Assembly: GCA_937873095.1 (NCBI GenBank)
Contig: CALMVI010000075.1
Coordinates: 1 to 33,085 of the forward strand
Source: an uncultured Acetobacteraceae bacterium
GTDB lineage: Bacteria > Pseudomonadota > Alphaproteobacteria > Acetobacterales > Acetobacteraceae
Length of the DNA stretch: 33,085 nucleotides
Reading direction: 5' to 3'
Positions 4,427 to 7,128 of the stretch are shown piece after piece. How positions within the stretch are numbered: the first letter of the stretch is position 1; every line of letters starts with the position of its first letter. The notes under the pieces were generated by a model that had not been told where the DNA came from, made no database searches, and saw only the letters and a program-made list of their open reading frames with translations. The position numbers and the translations under genes are program-made.

Positions 4427-5125
<699 letters not shown>

Positions 5126-5153
5126 GCTCGTTATCGACGAGCACCCCAGTCAC

Positions 5154-5190
5154 ATCGTCATTGCGAGGCCACTTGGCCGAAGCAATCCAC
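5154..5190 (+). repeat. Left 37-bp terminal inverted repeat of the GIY-YIG element
   Basis: It pairs with 5516-5552 in inverted orientation, with differences only at the 18th and 20th positions. A GGCC-ACTT-GGCC mini-palindrome lies at its centre. It begins 28 bases after the chvI stop, so it could also affect the 3' end of the chvI transcript. Confidence 0.92.
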
Positions 5191-5213
5191 GGCCGGCGGA
5201 TAACGGGTGTGCA

Positions 5214-5509
5214 ATGGGGGACGACAAGCAACCCGCAACCTGCATCATGGCAACGACCGTCACGGAACCCTGTACCTCGGCGTCACCTCCAACCTGCAAC
5301 GCCGCATCCATCAACACCGGGAAGCGATGCTGCCGGGCTTCACCTCCCGTTACGGATGCCGCATGCTGGTCTGGTTCGAGCTTCACACCGACATGCTTGC
5401 CGCCATCGCGCGCGAAAAACAGATCAAGGGCGGGTCACGCGCACGAAAGATAGGGCTGATCGGATCTGCGAACCCGCACTGGCACGATCTTTACGAAAAA
5501 CTCGTCTGA
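5214..5509 (+). pseudogene. GIY-YIG endonuclease (URI/COG2827 type), frameshifted near its N-terminus
   Basis: From 5255 onward the frame reads DRHGTLYLGVTSNLQRRIHQHRE, then PGFTSRYG, AIAREKQIK and NPHWHDLYEKL, the standard body of small stand-alone GIY-YIG nucleases. The family's first strand (normally a YIMAS-like stretch) lies in a different frame: ATG 5214 gives MGDDKQPATCIMA, ending at 5252. Restoring one A at 5252-5253 would join the two as IMA-NDRHGTLYLG. The first tyrosine of the GIY strand also appears as cysteine. A GTG-initiated open frame (5207-5509, 100 residues) exists but lacks this strand. I therefore read the gene as inactivated, or as miscalled by one base in the sequence. 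Confidence 0.78.
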
Positions 5510-5515
5510 CCCGCG

Positions 5516-5552
5516 GTGGATTGCTTCGGCCAGGCGGCCTCGCAATGACGAT
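5516..5552 (-). repeat. Right 37-bp terminal inverted repeat of the GIY-YIG element
   Basis: This is the inverted copy of 5154-5190 and starts seven bases after the GIY-YIG stop codon. Its centre reads GGCC-AGGC-GGCC. The glycosyltransferase gene on the minus strand ends 28 bases farther on. Confidence 0.92.
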
Positions 5553-5580
5553 CTCGATGGGGCGGCTTCCTACGACACCG

Positions 5581-7128
5581 TCAGGAGACAGACGCAGTTG
5601 CCGTCTCCGGGCGGGACATGCGACGCCCCGTACTGCCGTCCGAGCCCGGCGCGTAGTAGCGCATCAGGTCGCGCACATGCTCGTCCATCGAAAAAATCCT
5701 GATCGGCCCGTCCCAGAAGCGGGCGAGCGAAACCTCGCCGGTGCTGAACGCGGCGATGCGACGCTGCAGGTCGTCGGCCGAGCCGCCCTGGAACACGAAG
5801 AGCGGGTTGCTGGCCACCTCCTGCGCGCCGCCGCGGTCGGAGGTCAGCACGGGGATGCCGCGCGACACCATCTCGATGGAGACCTGCGGCAGGTTGTCCT
5901 CCCAGATCGGCGGCACGATGCCGAGGTTGACGCCCTGCAGGACGGTGTCGAGCGTCTTGTGGGTAAAGCCGTCGAAATAGCGGAAGGCGGCAAAGCGCGG
6001 CGCGATGTCCGTCAGGCGCTTGTACGCGGCAGCGTCCTCCGACTTCTTCGCCGCGACCGTCAGGGTGACCTTTCCCGCGACCTCGTCGGGCAACGACGCC
6101 AGCGCGCGCAGCAGCAGGTAGAAACCCTTGTTGCGGCGCATGTAGCCGAGATAGGCGATGTGCAGCCCGTCGCCGATGCCGGTGATCCTGACGCATGTCT
6201 CGAACGCGGCGCGGTGGGCGGTGCCGATATACGAGACGGCGACGTTGTCCGGCTGCATGCCGCGCGCGAGCAGGACGTCGCGCGTGCGCTGCGACACCGC
6301 CAGCACGGTATCGAACACGGTGGCGCACAGCTCGATGTTGGCCAGGCGGTAGTTCCGGTACGGCGTGCCGTCGCCGTCATGCTTGGGGAAGGCGAAGACC
6401 GGGCCCTCGGTGTCGGTCCGGTTGAACGAGCTGCGCGGCCCGCCGGAAAAATCGTCCTCGAACTCGACCTCGGGTTCGACGGGCGCCGGCTGGCCGCGCA
6501 GACGGCGCATCACCGCCTTCTTCACCTTGACCACGCCTGGCGCGTTCTTGTTGAAGAAGCGCACCACCGGCCGGCGCCGCCGCGCGTCGCGCAGGATGGC
6601 CGTGCCCTCGCGCGGCGGGAAGCACTTGGTGCAGTTCAGCCCCTCTCGGTAATCCTCGCACACGGTGCGTTCCTGGAACCACAGATCGACCTGCGGGCAG
6701 ACCGCGCTGTAGTTGTGCGCCGAATAGATGAAGCGGGCGGCGGGGAACGCCGCGCGCAGGCTGACGAAGAAAGAGCTTGTCAGGCCCTCGACGTTCTGGA
6801 AGTGAAACACGTCGATGTCGCCGTATTTCCGGCGCAGGACCGGCGCGATGCCGTCCAGCCCGCGGCTCTCGGTGTAGGTGCCGAAATCCTCCCACGCGTC
6901 GTAGGCCGGCGCGATCATCGGCGAGTTGATCACGACGGCCCGCTCGAAGCGGTCGCGCCAGGTGCGCAGCCGGGTGCTCCGCCTGGTGAAGGAATAGACG
7001 TCGCCCGAGCTGAGGGTGATCACCCGGTGGCCGGCCTGCCGCAGGCTGTGCGCCAGGTTGGTGCTGTACACGCCCACGCCGCCGCCGCCGTCCTCGGGCT
7101 GGAGGAAGTTGTAGATCAGTATGTTCAT
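5581..7128 (-). CDS. Family 4 glycosyltransferase (GT-B fold)
   Basis: A 515-residue protein that starts at ATG 7128 after a GGGGGAA ribosome-binding site. The N-terminal domain begins MNILIYNFLQPEDGGGGVGVY, the usual glycine-rich acceptor-side loop of GT4 enzymes. The C-terminal domain has HIAYLGYMRRNKGFYLLLRAL, then VPPIWEDNLPQVSIEMVSRGIPVLTSDRGGAQEV, the sugar-nucleotide-binding E-x7-E type region. A middle insertion of about 100 residues contains a cysteine cluster (CEDYREGLNCTKC) that may bind metal. The likely role is transfer of a sugar to a surface polysaccharide or lipid-linked glycan. The gene lies 61 bases downstream of the flippase gene on the same strand. Donor and acceptor cannot be assigned. 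Confidence 0.88.
   Translation of the reverse strand: MNILIYNFLQPEDGGGGVGVYSTNLAHSLRQAGHRVITLSSGDVYSFTRRSTRLRTWRDRFERAVVINSPMIAPAYDAWEDFGTYTESRGLDGIAPVLRRKYGDIDVFHFQNVEGLTSSFFVSLRAAFPAARFIYSAHNYSAVCPQVDLWFQERTVCEDYREGLNCTKCFPPREGTAILRDARRRRPVVRFFNKNAPGVVKVKKAVMRRLRGQPAPVEPEVEFEDDFSGGPRSSFNRTDTEGPVFAFPKHDGDGTPYRNYRLANIELCATVFDTVLAVSQRTRDVLLARGMQPDNVAVSYIGTAHRAAFETCVRITGIGDGLHIAYLGYMRRNKGFYLLLRALASLPDEVAGKVTLTVAAKKSEDAAAYKRLTDIAPRFAAFRYFDGFTHKTLDTVLQGVNLGIVPPIWEDNLPQVSIEMVSRGIPVLTSDRGGAQEVASNPLFVFQGGSADDLQRRIAAFSTGEVSLARFWDGPIRIFSMDEHVRDLMRYYAPGSDGSTGRRMSRPETATASVS

Follow-up and report, generated by a model that had tools for sequence, protein, structure and literature searches.

Described palindromic repeats and GIY-YIG nucleases

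The CGTC-tagged REPs form a superfamily that includes dRS3 of Neisseria and RPE-4/RPE-6 of Rickettsia (Di Nocera et al. 2013, PMC3733652). The available text of that paper describes dispersed, often paired repeats with an 8–9 bp stem starting with AT, a loop of 4–5 nt and a CCA-like tail, found in five phyla and apparently served by no dedicated transposase. Transposase genes flanked by CGTC units had been sought and, according to the same text, only fortuitous associations were found. The REP/RAYT system (REPtron) has GTAG-tagged REPs and an HUH tyrosine transposase as its enzyme (PMC3733652, in the text available). GIY-YIG nucleases are known from homing endonucleases, and the accessible part of a survey of the family draws no link to palindromic repeats (PMC1564403). 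A search of the open-licence literature, which can miss subscription papers and preprints, returned no title tying GIY-YIG nucleases to bacterial palindromic repeats, and a search with the end sequence of the locus described below gave unrelated titles among the matches listed.

A GIY-YIG gene between CGTC-tagged palindromes

The window, i.e., the whole 33,085 nt stretch of contig CALMVI010000075.1 from an uncultured Acetobacteraceae bacterium, contains the following features.

5156..5550, strand not assigned: whole unit, consisting of a REP, a broken GIY-YIG gene and an inverted REP (from arms, score and sequence)
5156..5189, + strand: left CGTC-tagged palindrome (REP) (from sequence and fold)
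5214..5509, + strand: decayed GIY-YIG nuclease gene (from Pfam PF01541 and alignment with L071, L054 and L041)
5517..5550, - strand: right CGTC-tagged palindrome (REP), an inverted copy (from sequence and fold)

A repeat search placed the inverted arms at 5144–5196 and 5510–5562 (53 nt, 85% complementary). When 250 nt on each side of the locus were scored for inverted repeats (match +1, mismatch -1), the locus reached 37, against a maximum of 19 at 309 other positions of the window. The inverted ends reported by the earlier note around a GIY-YIG frame are thus real, and so is the lack of a transposase: the unit measures 395 bp from CGTC tip to CGTC tip, which leaves no room for one. The GIY-YIG frame is the sole frame between the ends, with no transposase frame in the unit and no HUH tyrosine transposase between the REPs (a second Pfam row falls below its cut-off). 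Rfam gave no match to window positions 4900–5800 up to E=1.

Both ends start with CGTC, and in the left REP the tag is outermost with the CCA tail facing the gene. The stem starts with AT, and the REP has a 4-nt loop and a CCA tail, while the stem is split into 5 + 4 bp by an internal loop. As DNA, the left and right REPs are predicted to form imperfect hairpins of -8 kcal/mol (z -2.2) and -7.3 kcal/mol (z -1.3), respectively. The window ends, like many of those in the census below, fit the CGTC REP as outlined in the available text of PMC3733652 in part, in having a tag at one end, an AT start, a short loop and a CCA-like tail. Two points set the window REP apart from those described there: an internal loop interrupts its stem, and no dispersed copies are seen in the host; nor does that text report a dedicated enzyme, whereas here a GIY-YIG gene lies between the REPs.

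In related genomes, the chvI end of window positions 4427–5580 was matched and the downstream glycosyltransferase side was not, so that the unit sits at a break in synteny and no empty site could be read there.

Decay of the window copy and a second nuclease in the same genome

The interior of the unit matches the Pfam GIY-YIG domain (PF01541, E=5e-10) over profile positions 12–75 of 78, i.e., the domain begins only at position 12. The start of the gene was set by alignment to three relatives whose ends are of this kind (L071, L054 and L041), and the reading frame shifts near the 5′ end. In this alignment the gene is one base short near its 5′ end, and the tyrosine of the GIY motif, invariant across 29 aligned element proteins, is replaced. 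Given the missing base and the lost tyrosine, the window copy is most likely a fossil, barring a sequencing error, and the idea that it is a working unit finds no support.

With up to three mismatches allowed, the window end occurs twice in the host genome, both times at this unit, so no dispersal is seen there. The description of the end as a dispersed palindromic repeat, made from the window alone, therefore holds for other genomes and is not borne out in the host; likewise, the first of the two grounds for rejection in the earlier note, a repeat occurring nowhere else, is true of the host genome only.

The same genome carries a second GIY-YIG gene (L252; G000:C85:11186-11458) with an open frame and the motif tyrosine present. 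It is flanked by GGCCGG-type palindromes, of which there are 29 copies in the genome (up to three mismatches; a reversed-pattern control gave 0). Nine palindrome pairs that were read there have the inverted layout of the L252 unit, span 111–241 bp and resemble the unit only at the ends. Since homology is confined to the ends in these nine pairs, a derivation of the host REP pairs from the GIY unit by internal deletion is unsupported. One genome thus holds two nuclease-palindrome pairs, one intact-looking and one broken; the intact-looking nuclease is accompanied by 29 palindromes, the broken one by its own two only.

The nuclease family

Tyrosines, an arginine and a glutamate, among them residues taken to be catalytic, are conserved in the 29 aligned element proteins. 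An AlphaFold model of the nuclease has a mean pLDDT of 90. Its top Foldseek matches are the UPF0213 protein BH0048 (E=0.0013), Slx1 and the UvrC nuclease domain, none of them below E=0.001, and sequence-profile matches were to 1zg2 (6e-8) and 1ywl, both UPF0213, and to UvrC (1yd6). The closest solved relatives are UPF0213 and the UvrC N-terminal domain by profile, and UPF0213, Slx1 and UvrC by fold. The UPF0213 entries are labelled hypothetical proteins, while UvrC and Slx1 represent larger repair proteins or complexes, and repeats are mentioned in none of the listed entry titles. The title of one Slx1 entry refers to branched DNA substrates, which makes it plausible that the nuclease modelled here could cut hairpins or cruciforms. 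Searches of NCBIfam and PADLOC gave weak partial matches only, none naming the nuclease family.

The same arrangement in other genomes

A pattern scan for the outer ends at the spacing of the window returned at least 117 stretches from a species-genome collection and 4 from a viral collection. Among the matches listed, 53 of 131 (some overlapping) contain a GIY-YIG frame, in six of them in more than one piece; this is not an independent census, as the profile used was built from the hits that it counted. In many of the other 78, the longest frames appear on visual inspection to be translations of clustered copies of the end repeat. The GIY-positive loci include Chryseobacterium, Flavobacterium, Dehalococcoidia, Woesebacteria, Daviesbacteria, Melainabacteria, Omnitrophota, Fibrobacter, Rhodospirillales and Gammaproteobacteria. 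That GIY-YIG genes of this type might never lie between such ends elsewhere, which the earlier note had named as grounds for rejection, is contradicted by these loci from several phyla and by the protein-only census below, which is independent of the ends. REPs of the ATTGC type were present in 3–173 copies in all 33 genomes searched, two copies being expected from the selection of these genomes for an ATTGC-type unit.

Homologues were found by tblastn in 33 plasmid records, and none in the phage collection at E≤1e-8. Among five records of the plasmid collection, matching palindromes flank the gene at L317 (score 62) and L318 (score 31), while the ends are weak at L316 (score 16) and without a match at L315 (score 9). 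At L314, from Neisseria gonorrhoeae, ATTCCCGC-type palindromes lie on both sides with their tags inward (score 24). The L314 record (NZ_CP119140.1) is 2.17 Mb long, is filed as a plasmid, and may be a mislabelled chromosome. At L316, on plasmid p1 of Planktothrix agardhii, the GIY-YIG gene has an MmeI-type restriction gene on one side and drmA of DISARM on the other.

A more weakly matching GIY-YIG subfamily (L264–L283) was also seen between inverted palindromes, several of which belong to another class (CTTCGACAAGCTCAGG-like). Ten of these 20 loci score at least 20, compared with 0 of 36 displaced positions.

Protein-only census

Searched with a profile of the 29 element proteins (A1), 108 of 299 genomes from the window's phylum gave a match at E≤1e-8. 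From 117 listed matches at E≤1.1e-21, 110 loci were read, the window's own and six others being left out. Inverted-repeat scores around these genes were compared with positions displaced by 540 nt at the same loci: 82 of the 110 genes score at least 15 (displaced, 7/206), 72 at least 20 (2/206) and 62 at least 25 (0/206), leaving 28 below 15. A null made by pairing flanks across loci (400 pairings) has its 99th percentile at 25 and its maximum at 59, and is high because the loci share REP types. With a looser detector, tagged palindromes were found on both sides at 71 of the 110 loci, against 34 of 206 displaced positions. At 55 of these 71 loci the stems of the two flanks are identical at 7 of 7 letters, as they are in 7% of cross-locus pairs; the palindromes vary between loci, and those flanking one gene are mostly alike. 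The nearest pair is inverted with its tags outermost at 41 of the 71 loci and otherwise oriented at 30. A UvrC control was nearly empty because its profile located just 3 of 14 loci, with 0 of the 3 scoring at least 15.

The second phylum covered contains Chryseobacterium oranimense; in it, a match at E≤1e-15 was found in 76 of 148 genomes. Here the strict score reaches at least 20 at 7 of the 30 loci read (controls, 0/58), and a still looser detector found tagged palindromes on both sides at 28 of 30 (controls, 16/58). Support from this phylum is weaker, partly owing to its longer, imperfect palindromes.

Palindrome type follows the nuclease

Co-variation of nuclease and palindrome was assessed at those 89 of the 110 loci to which a stem was assigned (seven of them by hand), the 21 stemless loci being left out; host kinship was handled by restriction to cross-family pairs alone. 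Protein and stem identity are correlated over 3530 cross-family pairs (r=0.32; the highest of 2000 permutations gave 0.20) and over 47 pairs from the same genome (r=0.52, p=0.001). The nearest nuclease from another family shares at least six of seven stem letters at 44 of the 89 loci, where permutation gave a mean of 18 and a maximum of 32. One genome (G219) has four stem types at its five assigned loci. In this first phylum, both the association of nuclease with palindrome and their co-variation are strong.

Resident REP populations were compared with the presence of a strong nuclease match (E≤1e-18), using copy-number lists and a set of strong-match genomes compiled by hand. Uncorrected for kinship, such a match is present in 12 of the 14 genomes with at least ten ATTGCGAG-type REPs and in 60 of the remaining 285 (p=1e-6); where the REPs are of the ATTCCCGC type, again ten or more, it is present in 9 of 17 genomes and in 63 of the other 282 (p=0.008). 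Some REP-rich genomes have no strong match: G306 (107 ATTGC-type copies) and G056 (69 ATTCCCGC-type copies) have no nuclease among the matches listed, and G130 and G108 have partial nuclease matches only.

Duplicates, empty sites and selection

An alignment of units L239, L241 (from the genome of L239), L246 and L249 is close from one palindrome tip to the other and poor outside. In blastn, the likeness of L239 to L241 covers 738 bp and extends past the tips, and L246 resembles L249 on the upstream side, which speaks against reading these pairs simply as movement. Within a single genome, L258 and L262 share 82% identity across 414 bp. Another two units, L349 and L350, lie 6.4 kb apart in one genome and are 99.0% identical over 420 bp; their likeness ends at a palindrome tip on the 3′ side and within a REP cluster on the 5′ side. 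At two units of one genome, L352 and L353, each flank seems to consist of a complete REP pair, directly oriented, in place of a single inverted REP.

In Chryseobacterium, the unit is found at one site in eight loci (L040, L048, L049, L092, L097, L101, L108 and L134), between genes that we take, from their translations, to be barnase-like and barstar-like. It probably splits a toxin-antitoxin-like pair here, and in L092 the barstar-like side is displaced. A search with the joined flanks matched 98 of 98 genomes of the genus, at least 18 of them with one match across the join; 13 of these 18 were mapped (two as split matches) and 11 were inspected as sequence. Five (L285, L286, L287, L289 and L290) appear to be clean empty sites, three (L288, L295 and L312) retain apparent palindrome scraps at the joined site, and three (L291, L298 and L299) have no recognisable palindrome there. 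Judged by these alignments, the site shows presence and absence of the unit, leaving the direction of change aside. No target-site duplication was recognised at the site, where the flanks are about 70–80% identical and too diverged to exclude one.

Six intact orthologs (L040 being left out) gave dN values of 0.03–0.20, with dS of 0.59–1.94 in 12 of 15 pairs and saturated in the other 3, and are under purifying selection. Four within-genome pairs were left out for their differing lengths.

Discussion

The window element is probably a decayed copy of a widespread two-part system, in which a bare GIY-YIG endonuclease gene lies between two copies of its own REP, mostly CGTC-tagged, and the nuclease drives the spread. 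The data show a specific association with the palindromes, matching flanks, co-variation, whole units that recur with their limits near the palindrome tips, presence and absence at one orthologous site, and purifying selection on intact orthologs; that the nuclease does the cutting and moving, we infer.

The parallel with RAYT/REP pairs drawn in the earlier note is a close one. Both systems have dispersed short palindromes, REP pairs and an enzyme gene flanked by copies of the same palindrome. The gene is flanked by its own dispersed REP family in the nuclease family at large and at L252; the window copy is flanked in the same way, by a REP that is not dispersed. In place of the transposase and the GTAG tag of REP/RAYT stands a hydrolytic GIY-YIG nuclease of about 95–100 residues with a tag that is mostly CGTC. 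Free-standing GIY-YIG homing endonucleases offer a second parallel, as there too a GIY-YIG nuclease is tied to selfish spread. The nucleases described here, of about 95 residues, differ from them in having no intron, intein or extra DNA-binding domain, and in that their units are palindrome-flanked and their cognate REPs are dispersed rather than placed at one allele.

Under nuclease-driven spread, the enzyme would recognise its own palindrome as a hairpin or cruciform and cut at or near the tag, and host repair or replication would then place copies of the unit, or of palindromes and palindrome pairs that lack the gene, at new locations. Where the nuclease is broken, as in the window, its palindromes would stop multiplying and fade.

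A homing-type process is unlikely. In such a process, the nuclease would make a break in a REP, a REP pair or an empty site that is already there, and homologous repair would copy the unit in, with the palindromes serving as homology. Homing would suit the known occurrence of GIY-YIG nucleases among homing endonucleases (PMC1564403, in the text available), the position of L349 and L350 in or beside REP clusters, and the whole REP pairs on each side of L352 and L353. It would spread the gene into existing REPs without creating a REP population, and does not explain why REPs and REP pairs without a gene are dispersed or why they match the resident nuclease; moreover, five empty sites of the Chryseobacterium genus contain no recognisable REP.

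Alternatively, a RAYT or other host transposase might move the CGTC REPs, the GIY-YIG gene simply travelling along between two of these. Passengers are common in non-autonomous elements, and some REP-rich genomes are without a strong nuclease match. Against this stand the repeated occurrence of one gene family between the ends, the way palindrome type follows the nuclease across families and within genomes, and the outcome of the search by Di Nocera et al. for CGTC-flanked transposase genes, from which the available text reports fortuitous associations only (PMC3733652). Transport as a passenger is accordingly quite improbable in our judgement.

It is very unlikely that the nuclease is a domesticated host factor that trims or resolves palindrome cruciforms or hairpins, its linkage to REPs being regulatory and not for spread. 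Such a role would agree with the unit having been kept by descent at a single site across eight related loci, with purifying selection and with the repair or branch nucleases among the fold neighbours, but the recent 99% duplicate and the presence within one genome of several nucleases whose palindromes differ resemble the behaviour of an element. That an inverted repeat happens to flank a nuclease fragment by chance, for which the absence of a third end copy in the window's genome might be cited, is a negligible prospect given the score of 37 against at most 19 at 309 other window positions and the recurrence of arrangement and end type in 53 of the 131 same-spacing matches listed from two public collections, and is refuted by the protein-only census.

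The interest of nuclease-driven spread lies in the family, which offers a candidate nuclease partner for REPs that were thought to be orphans. Since the same pairing is found in many other bacteria, the results suggest that these GIY-YIG nucleases are the partner so far missing for a common class of repeats in bacteria, one without a known mover. A cognate nuclease would be a concrete, testable answer to the apparent want of a transposase among CGTC REPs, as that want is set out in the available text of PMC3733652. More tentatively, there may be a second kind of REP system, run by bare GIY-YIG nucleases with neither a transposase nor a recombinase; each would recognise its own tagged hairpin and spread the unit as well as gene-less REPs and REP pairs. 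Such a system could explain the CGTC REPs regarded as orphans (dRS3, RPE-4/6 and, from several phyla, the ATTGCGAG repeat), and a sister subfamily of nucleases would serve another class of palindrome (e.g., CTTCGACAAGCTCAGG-like). If this is true, a hydrolytic nuclease can replace a transposase in spreading short palindromes, and many natural nuclease-palindrome pairs of differing specificity would be open to study.
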